Origin: an uncultured Pelagibacteraceae bacterium
GTDB taxonomy: Bacteria; Pseudomonadota; Alphaproteobacteria; Pelagibacterales; Pelagibacteraceae
Direction of reading: 5' to 3'
DNA: 45,205 nt
NCBI GenBank assembly: GCA_902597425.1
Contig: CACJXT010000004.1
Coordinates: 1 to 45,205 of the forward strand
Shown here: positions 3,090 to 29,265 of the stretch, in pieces
How positions within the stretch are numbered: the first letter of the stretch is position 1
Layout of the letters: every line of letters starts with the position of its first letter
The notes under the pieces: model-generated
Seen by the model: the letters and a program-made list of their open reading frames with translations, nothing else
Told to the model about the DNA's origin: nothing
The model's database searches: none
Position numbers and translations under genes: made by a program

Positions 3090-4490
3090 TTACCTGGTTG
3101 ATGAGGAAACTGCTTTTTCATCGTCTCTTGCAGCCTCCAACAAGTTATAGTCTAGTCCAGCTATTTCAACTTCACGAGGAATTCTCAATTTACCCATTCC
3201 ATGAAGAACTTTAGCTATGATCCAGCCTGGTATTAATCCAAGAACCACAAACATTATAATTGCACCTATAAACATTCCCAAAGGATTAATTGGTGCATAG
3301 TCTGTTCCTACCCACATAGATCCAACACTGTATCCAGATGAAGGATATCCATTTAGAACAAAACCACAAATTATAAGTCCAGCGACTCCTGCATAACCAT
3401 GTACTGCTACTGCGCCAACCGCATCATCAATTTTAAATTTACGCTCAACCCAATAATGTAATTTATAAGCAACCATTACTCCAATCATAGCTATGATCAT
3501 TGATTGTATTGGATGATATAAATCATTACCTGCTGAAGCGCAGATGATACCTGCTAGTCCACTTGAGTATGTCCAGAATGGATCACCTTTTGCAATCCAA
3601 TATCCTGCCAACAATCCACCTGATAAAGACATCAAGAAGTTCATTGTGATACCACTAAGTGTAGTAGGTGTTACGTATATGTTTGTTGCCGTAAAGTATG
3701 TTACGCCTTCCATTCCATACTCAGGTCCAAGATTAAATATCGGTATATTACAAGCCGCATAAAATCCCCAGAAGCCAGTATAAATTAAAAATAATCCAAT
3801 TGTTACTAGCCAAGGATTTCTTGGTCCTATATTTCTTGGTTCACCACTAGAGGAGAATTTTCCAATTCTCGGTCCTAAAACAATAAGAATACCTAGAGCA
3901 AATCCACCTGCTATTGCGTGAATTACACCTGACGCGTAAGCATCATGATATCCCAAAATTTTAAGCATCCAGCCATCAAAATGCCAACCCCATGCAGCGT
4001 CAATTGTCCAAAATACAGATCCAATTGCAATTGCTAAAATTCCAAATGCAAAAGTTGTAATTCTTTCAATAACAGCTCCAGAGACAATTGATGCAGCAGT
4101 CCAAGAGAACAGTAGGAACGCAGCCCAGAATACTCCACTTATATGGTCGCCTAAATTGACAGCCATTAAATCGCTAGTAGGAACGTACCATTTTGCACTA
4201 AATGCAGAATCATCTGTAATAAGTGCAGCACTTTCATTCATTATTGAAGGTGCTAATCCTGGTCCTGTTGGAAATGCCCAGTAAATCCACCAACCAAAGA
4301 AAAACCATGTGACAGTTACCAAAGGTATCAGCATTGTATTTTTCATTAAGGTATGTTGGTGATGTTTGTAACGAGATGCGCCCACTTCATACATACAGAA
4401 ACCTACGTGTATTAAAAACATAAGTACTACTGTTATCCAGTAGTAAAATTCCGTAAATATGGTTGACAGTGCACCCAATTCGTCAGTCAT
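3090..4490 (-). CDS. amt: Amt/MEP/Rh-family ammonium (possibly methylammonium) transporter
   Basis: 466 aa polytopic protein; MYEVGASRYKHHQHTLMKN, DAYASGVIHAIAGGFALG and AVGAVAVHGYAGVAGLI correspond to Amt conserved segments including the two pore histidines. Confidence 0.85.
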   Translation of the reverse strand: MTDELGALSTIFTEFYYWITVVLMFLIHVGFCMYEVGASRYKHHQHTLMKNTMLIPLVTVTWFFFGWWIYWAFPTGPGLAPSIMNESAALITDDSAFSAKWYVPTSDLMAVNLGDHISGVFWAAFLLFSWTAASIVSGAVIERITTFAFGILAIAIGSVFWTIDAAWGWHFDGWMLKILGYHDAYASGVIHAIAGGFALGILIVLGPRIGKFSSSGEPRNIGPRNPWLVTIGLFLIYTGFWGFYAACNIPIFNLGPEYGMEGVTYFTATNIYVTPTTLSGITMNFLMSLSGGLLAGYWIAKGDPFWTYSSGLAGIICASAGNDLYHPIQSMIIAMIGVMVAYKLHYWVERKFKIDDAVGAVAVHGYAGVAGLIICGFVLNGYPSSGYSVGSMWVGTDYAPINPLGMFIGAIIMFVVLGLIPGWIIAKVLHGMGKLRIPREVEIAGLDYNLLEAARDDEKAVSSSTR

Positions 4491-19783: not shown

Positions 19784-20725
19784 ATGAAGAAAATATTATC
19801 TTTAATATCTGCTGTTTTGATATCGTTAGTGAGTTTTACTACCGTTCAAGCAGCCGACAGTAAAAAACCCACTCGAATTCCAACACACAATTGGTCAAGC
19901 CAAGTTGTAATGGCTTACGTGATTGGTGGAATTATAGAAGACATGGGTGGAAATGTAGAATATGTACCAGCTGACTCTCAGGCAGTTTATGAGTCAATTC
20001 GAATAGGTGATGTAGACATATCACACGAAGTTTGGGAATCTGCTTTTGGTAAATCATTTACTACAGCTCTAGATGCTGGTGGTTTACTTGACTGGGGAGA
20101 TCACGAAGCAAGAACTCTTGAAGATATGGGATATCCTAACTGGGTAACTGACAAAGGATTATGTCCAGGTCTTCCAGATTGGACTGCTTTAAAAAATCCT
20201 GATTGTGCTAAAAACTTTGTAACACCTGACTCAGATGGAAAAGGAAGAATGTTAGAAGGTCCACAAACTTGGCACGGTGACTTAATACCTCAAAGAATTG
20301 ATGCTTTAGGTTTAGGAGATCTTTGGTGGGTTAAATTTGCTGGAAGTGCAGATGCACTTTGGGCAGAATTAGCAGCAGCTGAGAAAGAAGGAAGAGGAAC
20401 TATTATATTTAACTGGACACCAAACTTTACAGATGGTGCTGGTTTTACATTTATAGACTTTCCTCCATACACTGCTGGTTGTAGACCAGAAGATGGTGGT
20501 GATGGAAAATGTGGTTCGCCAGATGGTTATTTGAAAAAGGCTGTAAATGCCGACTGGACAAAAACTCATCCAGCAGCAGCTAAAATGTTCAAAAGACTTT
20601 CATTCTCTACAGGTCAAATTGGTGCAATGGCGGCTTTAGTTGACGTTGACAAAATGACTCACGAAGATGCAGGTAAAAAATGGTTAGCTGATAACGAGTC
20701 TGTTTGGAAAGCTTGGACTAAATAA
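19784..20725 (+). CDS. tmoX: Periplasmic substrate-binding protein of a TMAO/quaternary-amine ABC transporter (TmoX/OpuAC-like)
   Basis: 313 aa with signal peptide (...FTTVQAAD); aromatic-rich binding protein (RIPTHNWSSQVVMAYVIGGIIEDMGGNVEYVPADSQAVYESIRIGDVDISHEVWES), divergent from tdm. Confidence 0.8.
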   Translation: MKKILSLISAVLISLVSFTTVQAADSKKPTRIPTHNWSSQVVMAYVIGGIIEDMGGNVEYVPADSQAVYESIRIGDVDISHEVWESAFGKSFTTALDAGGLLDWGDHEARTLEDMGYPNWVTDKGLCPGLPDWTALKNPDCAKNFVTPDSDGKGRMLEGPQTWHGDLIPQRIDALGLGDLWWVKFAGSADALWAELAAAEKEGRGTIIFNWTPNFTDGAGFTFIDFPPYTAGCRPEDGGDGKCGSPDGYLKKAVNADWTKTHPAAAKMFKRLSFSTGQIGAMAALVDVDKMTHEDAGKKWLADNESVWKAWTK

Positions 20726-20831: not shown

Positions 20832-21293
20832 ATGTTAAAGTGTTTTTTATATATATCTCTCGGCTTATTGTTCTTTACTATATCATTTGCTAAAAATGTA
20901 AATATACAAGAGGATATTGAACTTGGTTTTGTATGCGAGTTAGAAAAGAAAATACTTAAGAATTCAGAATATAATTATACAACTTTTCTAGCCAAAGATT
21001 TAGATGAAAAAGGGTTAGATAAGTTTGAAATTTTTGCAAAACAACCAGAAACACTATTGATTAATGGACTATCATTGTTCTTTTCAAAAACCGTAAAATT
21101 TGATGTCAAAGTTGTAAATAAAGACATAGTTTTATTTAAAGCTTTTAATAAAGAAAAGAATTACTCAGAGTCAGGCATAATAACTAGAAAATCTGGTGAA
21201 TTAGTTCATGAAATTACAAGAAATTTAAAAAGTGACAACTTAGAAAAAGATATTTCCTTTTATTCTTGTAGAAAAAAGGAGAAAAAAGTCTGA
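20832..21293 (+). CDS. Exported protein of unknown function
   Basis: 153 aa; N-terminal signal peptide MLKCFLYISLGLLFFTISFAKN; two Cys (one near each end of the mature protein). Confidence 0.6.
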   Translation: MLKCFLYISLGLLFFTISFAKNVNIQEDIELGFVCELEKKILKNSEYNYTTFLAKDLDEKGLDKFEIFAKQPETLLINGLSLFFSKTVKFDVKVVNKDIVLFKAFNKEKNYSESGIITRKSGELVHEITRNLKSDNLEKDISFYSCRKKEKKV

Positions 21294-21324
21294 TTTTTTT
21301 TTATATAATTTAGTGTAAAATATA

Positions 21325-21702
21325 ATGATGAAAAAATATCTCATTTACATAATTTTAAGTTTTTTAATTACAAATTCAGTATTAGCTCGAAAAACAGGTT
21401 GTGAGGGAAACTGTGTAGATGGTTTTGGTAAATGGACCTATACAGATAAAACAACTTATGAAGGAGAATGGGTTGGAACAAAAAAAAATGGTCAAGGACT
21501 TGAAATTTGGCCTAATGGATATGTTTATGAAGGTGAATTTAAAAATAGCGAGTGGAGTGGACAAGGAATTTTAACTTTTCCAAATGGTGCAACTTATGAA
21601 GGAGAGTGGGCCAATGGTTTCATGAATGGTGAAGGAACATTTACTTGGTCTGATGGAAAAGAAAAAACAGGCACTTGGGTAAACGGTGAATTGCAAGAAT
21701 AA
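21325..21702 (+). CDS. Exported MORN-repeat protein
   Basis: 125 aa; signal peptide, then repeats YEGEWVGTKKNGQGLEIWPNGYVYEGEFKNSEWSGQGILTFPNGATYEGEWANGFMNGEGTFTW. Confidence 0.8.
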   Translation: MMKKYLIYIILSFLITNSVLARKTGCEGNCVDGFGKWTYTDKTTYEGEWVGTKKNGQGLEIWPNGYVYEGEFKNSEWSGQGILTFPNGATYEGEWANGFMNGEGTFTWSDGKEKTGTWVNGELQE

Positions 21703-21710
21703 TTAAAACA

Positions 21711-22262
21711 ATGCTACAAGGTAGATATTTAAATAAATTAAAGGAGTTACCCGAACCAGTTAGACAATTCGGTGGTCTTATTACTATAACATTTATCGTA
21801 ATTTTATCTTTTGCTATTTTAAATATTTTTTGGGGTGGAGGTGATGAATTAGTTAGAAAAATGAAATTAGAAGAGGAAAGAATTGCAAAAGAAAAAGAAC
21901 TAAGCAAACTGATTTCAAGCCTTCCATCAGGTATTCTAGTACCCTATGAAGGAACAGAAGGCCATAAATTGTCCGAAGAACAACACGAAGCAGTTTGCAA
22001 TGCAACAAAAATTGTATCTCAGCGTTCTGTTATGGGCGCTAATTTAACAAATTTTAAAGCTAAACACATATATACTATTAACGGTAATGATATTAAAGAA
22101 ACATTTGTTAAGTGGGACAAAGAGAAAAATAAATGCTTTGCTGGTTTTACTGTAACTGGAAGTAATGTTGGAGTAAATGAAACAATTACTGTTAGTGGAG
22201 AGGTTTTAAGTTTTTTCAATACTGGAATTGATACAAGAGTTTATTTTATTAAAAATTTTTAG
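21711..22262 (+). CDS. Membrane-anchored protein of unknown function
   Basis: 183 aa; one TM segment (GGLITITFIVILSFAILNIFWG), then a charged linker and a soluble beta-rich domain. Confidence 0.6.
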   Translation: MLQGRYLNKLKELPEPVRQFGGLITITFIVILSFAILNIFWGGGDELVRKMKLEEERIAKEKELSKLISSLPSGILVPYEGTEGHKLSEEQHEAVCNATKIVSQRSVMGANLTNFKAKHIYTINGNDIKETFVKWDKEKNKCFAGFTVTGSNVGVNETITVSGEVLSFFNTGIDTRVYFIKNF

Positions 22263-22327: not shown

Positions 22328-23359
22328 ATGGCTGATGCGGTAATTAAATGTGATTCTGTATATAAAATTTTTGGGGTAAATGCCAAAAAGATGCTTCAAG
22401 AAGCAAATGGAAATGTGGATGCAAAAACATTCCAAGAAAAAGGATGCATTGTAGGAGTGAACAATGCTTCTTTTGAGGTTTCAAAAGGAGAAATGTTGGT
22501 TGTTATGGGTTTATCAGGCTCAGGAAAATCCACATTATTAAGATGCATTTCTAGATTAACAGACGCCACAGATGGAAAAATTTATATAGAAGGCCAAGAT
22601 TTACTCTCATTAAAAAACAAAGAACTAATTGAACTTAGAAGAAATAAAATGGGAATGGTTTTTCAAAGTTTTGCTTTACTTCCACACAAAACAGTTTTGG
22701 AAAATATTGCTTTCCCACTTCAAATTAAAGGAATTAAAACTCAAGATAGTATCAATAAAGCTATGGACATGGTTAAACTTGTTGGTCTTGATGGAAGAGA
22801 AAATTATTTTCCAAGAGAGCTTTCAGGTGGACAACAACAAAGAGTAGGTATCGCACGATCATTAGCTGTGGAACCTGACATTTGGTTTCTAGATGAACCT
22901 TTTTCTGCACTAGATCCATTGATTAGAAAAGAAATGCAGGATGAATTTTTAAGACTTCAAGAAAAATTAAAAAAAACAATCATGTTTATTACTCATGATT
23001 TTGATGAAGCTCTAAAACTAGCTGATCGTATAGCAATTATGAAAGATGGAATAATTGAACAGTTAGATACACCAGCAAAAATTGTATTAAGTCCAGCTAC
23101 AGAATATGTAAAAAAATTTACTGAAGAAGTTCCTAGGGAAAAAGTTTTAAAAATAGAAGATGTAATGGAAAAACCAAATAACGACAGTTTGAGTGATTTA
23201 AAAGTTTCAAAAAACGAAATAATTGAAAACGTAGCTGAAAAGATTTTAAGTCAAGAAAAATCCGTAGCTGTAACTGACGAAAATAATAAAATTGTTGGAA
23301 CTGTTCATCCTTCAAAAATAATTCATACTGTTTTTGGGGGGAGAAAAAATAACGAATAA
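22328..23359 (+). CDS. tmoW: ABC transporter ATP-binding subunit, glycine betaine/TMAO type, with C-terminal CBS-like tail
   Basis: 343 aa; Walker A GLSGSGKST, LSGGQQQRVGIARSLA signature, Walker B DIWFLDEPFSALDP. Confidence 0.85.
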   Translation: MADAVIKCDSVYKIFGVNAKKMLQEANGNVDAKTFQEKGCIVGVNNASFEVSKGEMLVVMGLSGSGKSTLLRCISRLTDATDGKIYIEGQDLLSLKNKELIELRRNKMGMVFQSFALLPHKTVLENIAFPLQIKGIKTQDSINKAMDMVKLVGLDGRENYFPRELSGGQQQRVGIARSLAVEPDIWFLDEPFSALDPLIRKEMQDEFLRLQEKLKKTIMFITHDFDEALKLADRIAIMKDGIIEQLDTPAKIVLSPATEYVKKFTEEVPREKVLKIEDVMEKPNNDSLSDLKVSKNEIIENVAEKILSQEKSVAVTDENNKIVGTVHPSKIIHTVFGGRKNNE

Positions 23360-23362
23360 AAC

Positions 23363-25387
23363 ATGGAATTATTAAAAAAATATCCAAAATTATTTCAATG
23401 GTTATTTTTGTTAGTTGTATTTTTTGCCTTATGCTTTGCAATTGATGTTCCTGAAACTTACAAATTTATAAGAGGTCAAGCCGAATTCATTAAAGACCCA
23501 AATCAAAGTACTTACACACTATTTGGCAAAGAAGTAAGATATTATGCATTTGATGTTCTTTGGCGACTACCTCCTTTACTTGGGTGGTTGCCTATTTGGG
23601 TAAATGACTCTTTGTTTTTCTTATTGAATGAATGGATGCCAATGGAGTTTTGGAATGAAGATCTTCAAGAATACAAAACTCGACCTTTAGTACTACAAAT
23701 AACAAGAAATATAACTGCATCTATGACATTTCTTATTGAATTGATTAGAGAAGTTTTATTAGGTGGTTCTAAAACAGTTGTTGCATTTACCAGTTGGGAC
23801 TGGATAGATAAAAATCCATGGGCAGAACTGCCAGGTTTACCTTGGACAATCGTTGCAGCGGGTGCAGTAATATTATGTTACAAACTGAGCGGTAAGGGTC
23901 TGGCTATATTTGCTGGTTTAGTCATGATTTATATTTCTGTATTTGGTCAATGGAAACCTTCGATGCAAACACTTTCTTTTATATTGGTGGCAGCACCACT
24001 TTCTTTTATTTTTGGTTTGAGCTTAGGCATTATGGCTTACAAAAGCAAACGTGTTGAGAAAGCTTTATATCCTATACTCCTAGTGATGCAGACTATGCCA
24101 CAATATGCAGTGCTAGTTCCTGCAATGGTTCTGTTTGGCATTGGCGATCATGCTGCAGTTATTATAACAATGGTTGTTGCTATTCCTCCAATGATCTTAT
24201 TAACCTTGTTAGGTCTTAGAGCGGTACCTTCCGAAGTTATTGAAGCTGGCAAAATGAGTGGATGTAATAATTGGCAACTTATGACCAAAGTATTAATTCC
24301 AACAGCAAGAAGAGACATTTTAATTGGAGTGAACCAGGTAATAATGGTGTGTTTCTCTATGGCGGTTATTTCAGCTTTTATAGGTGCTAAAGGATTAGGG
24401 TGGAATTTATTGTTAGCTTTAAATCAGCTAAATATTGGATTAGCATTAGAAGCCGGCTTATGTATTAGCATGATTGCAATACTGTTAGATAAAATGTCAT
24501 TGGCTTGGGCAAATAAACAAGAAGATTATTTTGGTAACCTGACTTTTTTTCAGCGTTATAAAAATACATTGTTTTTTGCTGGAGCAGTATTGATTGGATT
24601 AATATTTGCCTACGCTGGATCTTTTTTGTTTAAAGATAGTTTTAATTACTTTTCTGAGATTCCACATAATAAAGGAATATCATTTGCAGATTTCTGGAAT
24701 AAAGGTGTTGATTGGATTTGGGATACATTCTTTCAAACTTTAAAAATATTTAATACTTGGCTAATAACAGAAGTTCTTCAACCAATGAGAGCCTTGTATC
24801 TAAGAATGCCAGCAGTTGCTACTTTAGTATTAGTGGTTGGAGCAGGTTATATAATTGGTGGAATTCGTTCAGCTTTTACAGTGGGTGGATTAGCATTATT
24901 TATAGCGCTAAGCCCATGGTGGGATAGAGCTTTAGTCACAACATACATGGCAACTTTTGGAGTTATTGCTTCTTGCACAATTGGACTAACTGTTGGAACT
25001 TTATGTCAACAAAATCAATATACCACAAAATTTATGTTGGCAGTTTGTGATATTTTTCAAACATTTCCTTCTTTTGTATATTTAATTCCAGTAATGATGC
25101 TTTTTGGAATCACTGATACATCAGTATTAATTGCAGTAATTGTTTACGCAACTATACCTGCTACAAGGTACACTATTGAGGGATTGAGAAGTGTTCCACC
25201 TGCTTTGCATGATGCGGCCACAATGTCAGGTGTAACGAAATTACAAAGATTAATAAACATAGAATTTCCAGTAGCGTTTCCTCACATGATGCTTGGTGTA
25301 AATCAAACAATAGTATTTGCTTTGTTTATGGTAATTATAGGAGCATTTATTGGAACAGAAGATTTAGGACAATATATTCTAAAAAAT
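23363..25387 (+). CDS. tmoV: Permease part of a hybrid ORF: Tmo/ProW-type double-TMD permease, C-terminally truncated
   Basis: Residues 1-675 of the 1126-aa ORF; two OpuAB-like TMDs (LRAVPSEVIEAGKMSGCNNWQLMTKVLIPTARRDILIGVNQ and LRSVPPALHDAATMSGVTKLQRLINIEFPVAFPHMMLGVNQ). Ends IGTEDLGQYILKN, before the expected last TM segment. Confidence 0.8.
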
Positions 25388-26743
25388 GGGTGGGTAGAGC
25401 ATAATCCAAATGAGATTTGGAACACAACAAGAAAAGTATTAATTGATGTAATTGCAAAAAGTAAAAAATTAAAAGGCAAAATCCTAACGATTGGTATTAC
25501 AAATCAAAGAGAAACAACAGTTTTATGGGACAAATCAAATGGGAAACCAGTTTATAATGCAATTGTATGGCAAGATAGAAGAACAGAAGATTTTTGTAAT
25601 GAACTTAAAAAAAGAAATAAAGAAAAAAAAATTAGGAAAAAAACAGGCTTATTTTTAGATCCTTATTTTTCAGCTACAAAAGCAAGATGGATAATTAAAA
25701 ATGTTCCAAAAGCAAAAAAATTAATTAAAGAAAAAAAATTATTATTTGGAACAATCGATACTTTTTTAATATGGAAACTTACTTCTGGAAAAGTTCATGC
25801 AACAGATGCCACTAACGCATGTAGAACCATGTTATATAATATTAATAGCAACAAGTGGGATAATGAAATCTTAAAACTTTTTAATATTTCAAAAAACATT
25901 TTACCTGAAGTAAAAAATTCTGCGGATAATTTTGGAATCACAAAAAAATCTATAATAGGAAAATCAATTCCTATTAATGGTGTAGTTGGTGATCAACAAG
26001 CGGCAACTATAGGTCAGTGTTGTTTTTTGCCAGGTTCTGTAAAAAGCACATATGGAACAGGGGCTTTTGTATTGATGAATACTGGTTCAAAAAAAATATT
26101 TTCAAAAAATAAACTGCTAACTACTATTTGTTATAGAATTAACAACAAAACTACTTATGCACTAGAGGGATCAATATTTACTGCTGGTGCAGGAGTGCAA
26201 TGGATAAGAGACAAAATAAAATTAATAAATAATGCTTATGAAACAGAAAAAATTGCAAAGTCTAGAAAAAATAATAACGGAGTTTATTTAGTTCCTGCTT
26301 TTACCGGACTAGGGGCTCCTTATTGGAGTCCTAATTCTAGAGGATTGTTGAGTGGATTGACAAGAAATACGGATTGGAAAGATATTGTTAGAGCAGTTCT
26401 CGAGTCAGTTGCTTATCAAAGTTTTGATTTATTTAAAGCAATGAACAAAGATGGTCTAAAACCTAGAGAAGTTAAAGTTGATGGTGGAATGGTTTTAAAC
26501 AATTGGTTTTCACAATTTCTCTCAGACATTCTAGATATTAAAGTAATAAGGCCAAAAATTAATGAAACTACTGCTCTTGGGGCAGCATTTGTTGCGGGGC
26601 TTTATATTGGAGAATTCAAATCTTTCAAATCTATCTCCAGAGAGTGGAAAATCGATAAAAGATTTGACCCTAAAATTAATAAATCAAGTAGAATTAAACT
26701 ATTGAAAGGTTGGGAACAAGCAATTAAGAGAACTTTGATTTAG
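25388..26743 (+). pseudogene. glpK: Glycerol kinase lacking its N-terminal ~48 residues, fused in frame to the permease
   Basis: Residues 676-1126 begin GWVEHNPNEIW...[30 protein letters not shown], aligning with internal E. coli GlpK GWVEHDPMEIW...[30 protein letters not shown]. The N-terminal DQGTTSSR loop is absent. Confidence 0.85.
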
Positions 26744-26752
26744 GATATAGAA

Positions 26753-27781
26753 ATGAAAAAAATTGTTATTATAGGAGCTGGTGCAATGGGTTCGGCATTT
26801 ACTGTCCCCTGTGCAGATAACGACAATGATGTAACATTAATTGGTACTCATTTAGAAAATGAACTCATTACATCTATTAAGAAAAATAAAAATTTTCATC
26901 CTACTTTAAAAACTAATTTACCCTCAAAACTTAAAATTGAAAGATTTGAAAATTTAAAAGCTATAACTAAAAAAGGTGCAGATGTAATTGTAGCGGCAAT
27001 CAGTTCAATAGGTATAAAATGGTTTGCAGAAGAAATTTCAAAATTTTACAAAAAAAAACTTCCAATAGTTTTATTAACAAAAGGTCTTTCAGTAGAGAAA
27101 GATGAACTAATTACCCTTTCAGAAAAAATAAGTATTTTATTAAAAGAAAAGGGACACAATGAAATAAATATTTCAGCAATTAAAGGACCTTGTTTGGCAA
27201 CTGGCTTGGCAAATAAAATGAGAACTGGAACTGTAATAGCTAATCCAGATATTAAAGAAGCACAATTTCTTAAAAAAATTATTTCAACGGATTATTATTC
27301 AACAGAAATATCAAATGATATTATAGGTGTTGAACTGTCGGGCGCTATTAAAAATATTTACTCAATGCTGATAGGTGCTTCGGAAGGTTTAAGTAATTCA
27401 AAAGCTCCAATCGAGATACAATCTAAATATTATTTAAATACTTCAGCATCGTTAATTCATAGATCAATTTCTGAAATGGTAGAATTTGTATCTCTTTATG
27501 GTGGTAATTCAGAAACGGTTTATGGACTAGCTGGTCTAGGAGATCTTTATGTTAGTGCTATCGGAGGAAGAAATAGTTTGATGGGAAAGTATCTTGGCCA
27601 AGGTCATTTATATAAAGATGCAAAAGAATTATACATGAAAGATATAACAGTAGAAGGTGCTGAACTTGCATTTGAAATAGGTCCAAAAATTTTTAAAGAT
27701 CTTAAAGCAAACAAATTTCCTTTAATGTTTAGCGTTCTAAAATCTATATGTGAAAACAAAAAATTAGAAATTAATTGGTAA
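26753..27781 (+). CDS. gpsA: NAD(P)-dependent glycerol-3-phosphate dehydrogenase-like
   Basis: 342 aa; KKIVIIGAGAMGSAFTVPCADNDNDVTLIG, IKGPCLATGLANKMRTG, GVELSGAIKNIYSMLIGASEGL, GLAGLGDLYVSAIGGRN. Confidence 0.85.
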   Translation: MKKIVIIGAGAMGSAFTVPCADNDNDVTLIGTHLENELITSIKKNKNFHPTLKTNLPSKLKIERFENLKAITKKGADVIVAAISSIGIKWFAEEISKFYKKKLPIVLLTKGLSVEKDELITLSEKISILLKEKGHNEINISAIKGPCLATGLANKMRTGTVIANPDIKEAQFLKKIISTDYYSTEISNDIIGVELSGAIKNIYSMLIGASEGLSNSKAPIEIQSKYYLNTSASLIHRSISEMVEFVSLYGGNSETVYGLAGLGDLYVSAIGGRNSLMGKYLGQGHLYKDAKELYMKDITVEGAELAFEIGPKIFKDLKANKFPLMFSVLKSICENKKLEINW

Positions 27782-27940
27782 ATGAATACTAAAATTATAA
27801 ATATTGCTGGATGGATTTTATTTTTGATCTCTGCAATTGGTTTTATTATGTCTAGCTTTGGAAATTTTTGGGCTATGTTTGGAAGTCTTTTCTTTTTAGC
27901 AGGCTGTGTAGTTTTTTTGATACCTTATTTTTTTGATTGA
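27782..27940 (+). CDS. Small two-TM membrane protein (52 aa), not in the ORF track
   Basis: ATG immediately after the gpsA stop; MNTKIINIAGWILFLISAIGFIMSSFGNFWAMFGSLFFLAGCVVFLIPYFFD*. Convergent 16-nt overlap with the tmm 3' end. Confidence 0.55.
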   Translation: MNTKIINIAGWILFLISAIGFIMSSFGNFWAMFGSLFFLAGCVVFLIPYFFD

Positions 27941-29265
27941 TTTAAAAAAGTTTTTGAAGAATCATCCATTGCGGAAGCCCATGGGGTATGATGAATTGGT
28001 GCAACAGAACCAGTAACTGGTGAAGAAAAAGATTTGTTTCTATAAGTCATAATATCTTCTACTTTGTGGTGTTCCCATTCTTTAAAATGCTTTCTAATTA
28101 ATTCAAAATCAATTTTTGGATAATCAGACAGCCCATGAAGTTCTTTAGTATATTCAGTTTGAAAATCTATCATTTGATCAGGATTTTCTAATTTTTCTTC
28201 CATAGCAACCCATTTATTAATATCTTTTTCTATTTCTGAATTACTTGGAATTTTAATCTTACCCATTATTACATCTCTTGCATACCAAGCCTGACAATCA
28301 AACATGTTAAAGGTATGAAATTGATCCTGCATACCCAAGTACAACAATTTATGATTATTTTCCCAAACCACACCTTTATACAATTTTGGTGGATATAATC
28401 TGTTTCTAGTTTTTAGTTTAAGGTCTTCAGTTAAAAAAGGGAAATGATGAAGATAACCTGAACATAAAATTATTGCATCAGCTTCTTGTTTGTGACCATC
28501 TTTAAAGATTGCTTTATTTCCATCTAGTCTGTCTAAATAATGTACTTCTTTCATTCCATTAGGCCATTTAAATCCCATTGGGTTATTTCTATAACCTATA
28601 GTTACACTCTTCGCTCCATACTTATAACACTGAAGAGCAACATCTTCAGCTGAATAACTACTTCCTAAAACAATAACATTTTTACCTCTGAATTCTTCTG
28701 CGTCTCTAAAATCATGTGAATGTAATATTCTTCCTGGAAAAGATTTCATTCCTGGATATTCTGGAATAAATGGAACAGAGAAATGTCCTGTAGATACAAC
28801 TACATAATCAAATGTATCTTTTGAAAACTTATCATTTTTTTTATCATGAGAAGTAACTTCAAAATTATTTTCATTATAAGTTACAGTCATAACAGTTGTG
28901 TTAAATCTTACTTTGTTTTTAAGATTACCTTTTTTTACTCTACTAATTATATAATCATATAAAACTTCTCTTGGAGGAAATGATGGAATTGGATGTCCAA
29001 AATGCTCATCAAATGAATAATCAGCAAATTCTAAACATTCTTTAGGACCATTAGACCAAAGATATCTATACATGCTGTTAGGAACAGGGTCTCCATATTG
29101 ATCAGATCCAGTTCTCCAATTGTAGTTCCACAATCCACCCCAATCTTCTTGTTTTTCAAAACAAACTATTTCAGGTATTTTTTCACCTTTTTTTTCAGCT
29201 TGCTCGAAAGCTCTTAACATTGAAAGACCACACGGTCCTGTCCCAATAATGGCTACTTTTGTCAT
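27925..29265 (-). CDS. tmm: Flavin-containing trimethylamine monooxygenase
   Basis: 446 aa; FAD motif IGTGPCGLSMLRAF, FMO fingerprint-like FRGKNVIVLGSSYSAEDVALQC, QEDWGGLWNYNWRTGSDQYGDPVPNSMYRYLWSNGPKE as in bacterial Tmm. Confidence 0.92.
   Translation of the reverse strand: MTKVAIIGTGPCGLSMLRAFEQAEKKGEKIPEIVCFEKQEDWGGLWNYNWRTGSDQYGDPVPNSMYRYLWSNGPKECLEFADYSFDEHFGHPIPSFPPREVLYDYIISRVKKGNLKNKVRFNTTVMTVTYNENNFEVTSHDKKNDKFSKDTFDYVVVSTGHFSVPFIPEYPGMKSFPGRILHSHDFRDAEEFRGKNVIVLGSSYSAEDVALQCYKYGAKSVTIGYRNNPMGFKWPNGMKEVHYLDRLDGNKAIFKDGHKQEADAIILCSGYLHHFPFLTEDLKLKTRNRLYPPKLYKGVVWENNHKLLYLGMQDQFHTFNMFDCQAWYARDVIMGKIKIPSNSEIEKDINKWVAMEEKLENPDQMIDFQTEYTKELHGLSDYPKIDFELIRKHFKEWEHHKVEDIMTYRNKSFSSPVTGSVAPIHHTPWASAMDDSSKTFLNQSKK

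Follow-up and report, generated by a model that had tools for sequence, protein, structure and literature searches.

The window analysed here (45,205 bp) is the entire contig 4 of its assembly and carries an open reading frame of 1126 aa (23363-26743, + strand), in which a TMAO-type ABC permease (TmoW/ProW-like) continues directly into a headless glycerol kinase. We do not regard this hybrid as a new fusion protein. Most likely it is an artefact, and at most it represents a recent gene-breaking deletion in one cell. In either case, one repeat-mediated deletion of 256 bp would have joined a TmoW-type permease gene, in its 3' part, to the interior of the adjacent glpK gene.

An earlier note on this DNA had described the in-frame hybrid, and its description is confirmed by the open reading frame and by the order of Pfam domains within it. 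Two stretches of BPD_transp_1, the hallmark of a TmoW/ProW-type permease, are followed by FGGY_N and FGGY_C, and the peptide at the junction is ...GAFIGTEDLGQYILK|NGWVEHNPNEIW... Both partners are truncated where they meet, as had also been claimed: the second BPD_transp_1 match stops at profile position 146 of 184, and FGGY_N begins at position 30 of 245. The permease part (residues 1-674; 23363..25384, + strand) is devoid of its last 43 residues and its stop codon. In the closest intact locus, L038 (AG-464-P04), these residues include the last hydrophobic segment (residues 685-703), the C-terminal helix that completes the second permease domain; this segment was not found in the hybrid. The glpK remnant (25385..26743, + strand) lacks about the first 40 codons, including the start codon, according to the TIGR01311 and PDB alignments. 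It still scores 636.9 bits against the glycerol kinase equivalog TIGR01311 (cutoff 590.35), spanning profile positions 31-493 of 496. The N-terminal strand-loop DQGTTSSR, which is the phosphate-binding region in actin-like kinases, is missing from the hybrid and is present in the aligned sequences of L038 and other relatives. Genuine GlpK sequence restarts at GWVEH, as had been proposed; the matching position in the E. coli enzyme is close to residue 44.

The start of the hybrid (23363) comes immediately 3' of a gene for a tmoV/proV-like ABC ATPase (22328..23359, + strand; Pfam ABC_tran, TIGR01186 proV above cutoff). A tmoX-like periplasmic substrate-binding protein of the OpuAC family is encoded at 19784..20725 (+ strand; Pfam OpuAC, E = 1.1e-35; PDB 4xz6, E = 6.8e-79). 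The structure 4xz6 is that of TmoX from Ruegeria pomeroyi (PMC8918994). Downstream of the hybrid are an intact gene for an NAD-dependent glycerol-3-phosphate dehydrogenase-like protein (26753..27781, + strand; Pfam and TIGR profile matches) and a trimethylamine monooxygenase gene (27925-29265; profile match). Because the binding protein matches the TmoX structure and the monooxygenase gene is nearby, the permease is best named TmoW-like. Three small ORFs lie between tmoX and tmoV (20832-22262), one of them with MORN-like GEW/YEGE repeats.

The locus in L038 is collinear with the window and 93-98% identical over 11 kb. A global alignment of the two revealed a single large difference: exactly 256 bp are missing from the window after position 25380, which is inside the range of 0.25-0.35 kb previously estimated. 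The lost sequence comprises 43 permease codons, the stop codon, 4 nt, and 40 glpK codons. In L038, the deletion endpoints sit in ACAATATATTCTAAAAG on the permease side and in ACAATATTTTCCAAAAG on the glpK side, which form an imperfect direct repeat (14/16) at 256 bp spacing; one copy survives in the window (25369..25384, + strand). The repeat appears in two overlapping registers and is the only one of this quality in the two gene ends. Random blocks of equal size contain a mean of 0.13 such pairs, and the one observed pair is at the junction. Nearby segments are thus joined at a microhomology, as in chimeras generated by MDA. A hairpin bridging the repeats is not indicated, as the folding of the deleted sequence does not surpass that of shuffled versions (z = 1.58). 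Assembly collapse on a long repeat was rejected because the repeat has just 16 bp with two mismatches. An inter-strain chimera is not supported: the window matches L038 at about 97% identity up to the junction and at 98.6% beyond it, with no sharp switch.

The comparison with syntenic loci in close relatives, which the earlier note had proposed as a check, revealed two complete and separate genes in all 63 other Pelagibacteraceae loci where permease and glpK adjoin. The gap between the genes is 4 nt in 49 of these 63 loci, and glpK starts with GTG in 31, TTG in 28, and ATG in 4 cases. The prevalence of GTG/TTG starts (59/63), usually 4 nt past the permease stop, suggests that glpK is translationally coupled to tmoW. 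Permease and glpK are in different frames in 58 loci, and a stop codon separates the genes in each of the five same-frame loci (L025, L026, L027, L053, L076). In three of these (L025, L026, and L027 from genomes G017, G026, and G009; positions ~3619-3625), this is a single TAG, and read-through would result in a fusion of about 1200 aa; the 1201-aa "open frame" in these genomes was rejected as a natural fusion because TAG separates the genes in each. TAG terminates 29 of the 63 permease genes (TAA the other 34), compared to 79 of 706 ORFs of at least 150 aa in the window's own genome. In one MAG (L100, 2593-4280), about 1.7 kb lie between permease and glpK instead of the usual 4 nt. Of all whole genomes searched, G015 (L009) has the permease closest in sequence (95%); after position 2183, unrelated sequence takes the place of glpK there. 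As judged from this sequence past the permease stop, glpK is variable within the group.

The junction itself proved to be confined to the window's genome; L010, on the wrong strand, and L009, without glpK, were left out of the junction comparison. A degenerate search for GQYILKNGWVE covered 399 genomes from the genus, including 57 with a completeness of at least 90%, and matched this genome alone, so that conservation of the fusion in independent genomes was not found (1/399 genomes, the window's own; 0/63 adjacent loci). A second glpK was not found in the window's assembly, which is incomplete.

This assembly has 878,968 bp in 58 contigs and is 64.7% complete; its smallest contig has 2037 bp. 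Across the assembly, with its 11 contigs of less than 3 kb read as N, no 21-mers common to contig ends were found, nor was the inverted-repeat signature of MDA chimeras detected at contig ends. The matching relatives are Pelagibacteraceae (SAR11), nearly all of them single-cell genomes. The SCGC single-cell pipeline, from which most of the relatives come, applies a contig cut-off of 2,000 bp, with a benchmark of 1.5 misassemblies per 100 kb (PMC11247762, PMC6122165). From the number and minimal size of the contigs, the absence of shared end 21-mers, the SCGC cut-off, and the single-cell origin of the relatives, we infer that the window's genome is a single-amplified genome rather than a MAG. 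Chimeras formed by phi29 polymerase during amplification link segments that lie near each other, and they do so where short stretches are complementary (PMC1855051, PMC4595205); these have 2-21 nt at more than 70% of the chimera junctions (PMC1855051). For inverted chimeras, the overlap peaks at 6 nt and the distance at 250-300 nt (PMC4595205). Direct-orientation chimeras spanning less than 10 kb are a small minority (11/475; PMC1855051).

The glpK remnant and the gene downstream of it show no sign of decay. Synonymous and nonsynonymous differences from L038 number 12 and 3 in the glpK remnant (dN/dS 0.065), 43 and 22 in the permease part (dN/dS 0.137), and 12 and 4 in the downstream gene (26753..27781; dN/dS 0.089); further comparisons, among them those with L108 and L042, were out of register and do not enter these results. 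As an old deletion would have let nonsynonymous changes accumulate in glpK, the deletion is either very recent or absent from the cell, which agrees with the previous view that the event is very recent or an artefact. Collinear gaps were also listed between two rebuilt assemblies, those of the window's genome and of genome G423. Compared to G423, the window's genome has about 15 further large deletions, and almost all of these respect gene boundaries on both sides, with a less clean case at C6:26445; the large gap that breaks two genes is the junction on contig 4. The 442 ORFs that could be compared contain essentially one more clear interior break, on contig C11 (20558-22241): in comparison with G423, a +1 indel in an A-run divides the gene there into two overlapping ORFs. 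An error in sequencing or assembly or a newly arisen frameshift is the likely cause.

We thus consider it probable that the hybrid is an artefact of amplification or assembly. The junction would have been created in vitro, through a template switch of the polymerase while the genome of a single cell was being amplified or through a comparable error in the library or the assembly; it would then be absent from the living genome, and the frame across it would be open by chance (1 in 3). Such an origin is favored because every relative with adjacent genes keeps both of them complete, because the junction is restricted to one of 399 genomes of the genus, and because its endpoints sit in a 14/16 repeat, short homology being the norm at phi29 junctions. 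The undecayed state of the glpK remnant, the fact that the other large gaps nearly all take whole genes, and an assembly that is consistent with a single-amplified genome point in the same direction. Against this, direct-orientation chimeras of less than 10 kb are rare among MDA chimeras, and a chimera would need to dominate local coverage to enter the consensus. Moreover, the rest of the assembly looks clean at the gene level and devoid of a chimera signature at contig ends, and the assignment as a single-amplified genome and not a MAG is itself indirect. It is possible, though we consider it unlikely, that a genuine and very recent slippage deletion between the repeats occurred in the sampled cell or strain, inactivating the glycerol kinase and probably also the TMAO-type permease. 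The anatomy of the junction is identical to that of a slipped-strand deletion product. The repeat is far shorter than the usual assembly k-mers, so that DNA molecules bearing the junction probably existed, and the variability of glpK beyond a 95% identical permease in G015 indicates that its loss could be tolerated. However, no other genome of the genus carries the junction, the remnant has accumulated neither substitutions nor stops, other losses in the lineage remove whole genes, and the loss of a conserved permease would also be costly.

The earlier note had also entertained a functional fusion. Such a protein, under selection and linking solute uptake to the phosphorylation of glycerol, is highly improbable. 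It would account for the open frame of 1126 aa, the low dN/dS, and a remnant above the TIGR01311 cutoff, but the low dN/dS records the history before the deletion, the junction occurs once in 399 genomes and is unique to this assembly, and the 63 relatives with adjacent genes all keep two genes. Both parts also lose essential structure, the kinase its first ~40 residues with the conserved DQGTTSSR loop and the permease its last helix. Past the final helix, the native permease C-terminus carries many basic residues and, by the positive-inside rule, is assigned to the cytoplasm; without this helix, the appended kinase is expected outside the membrane, on the periplasmic side, as far as topology can be deduced from sequence. 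Both halves of the hybrid protein should therefore be non-functional. Another highly improbable reading is that some SAR11 lineage truly carries the in-frame fusion as an allele, with the truncated permease anchoring the truncated kinase in a new role.

The case is a caution for genomes obtained by amplification, from single cells or otherwise: a repeat-mediated deletion can mimic an in-frame fusion and would then enter annotation as a new protein of two domains. If the deletion is real, it would add to the gene-inactivating polymorphisms of SAR11, with glycerol kinase and probably TMAO-type import lost in one cell.

Compared to known systems, the locus resembles TmoXWV, the ABC importer for TMAO in SAR11 and Ruegeria (PMC8918994), in the order of tmoX, tmoV, and tmoW, in having a trimethylamine monooxygenase gene close by, and in its binding protein, a relative of PDB 4xz6; it differs in that the 3' end of tmoW, with 43 codons and the stop, is gone. 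Glycerol kinase GlpK (TIGR01311; PDB 1bo5, 4e1j) aligns end to end with the hybrid from residue ~44 onward, whereas the first ~40 residues with DQGTTSSR are missing. As in slipped-strand deletions between short direct repeats, a single repeat copy is retained and the DNA between the copies is lost, but the allele is devoid of population support. While its direct orientation belongs to a minority class and its origin by amplification is proposed, the junction resembles phi29 MDA chimeras (PMC1855051, PMC4595205) in that nearby segments are joined at a short homology and the intervening DNA is deleted.
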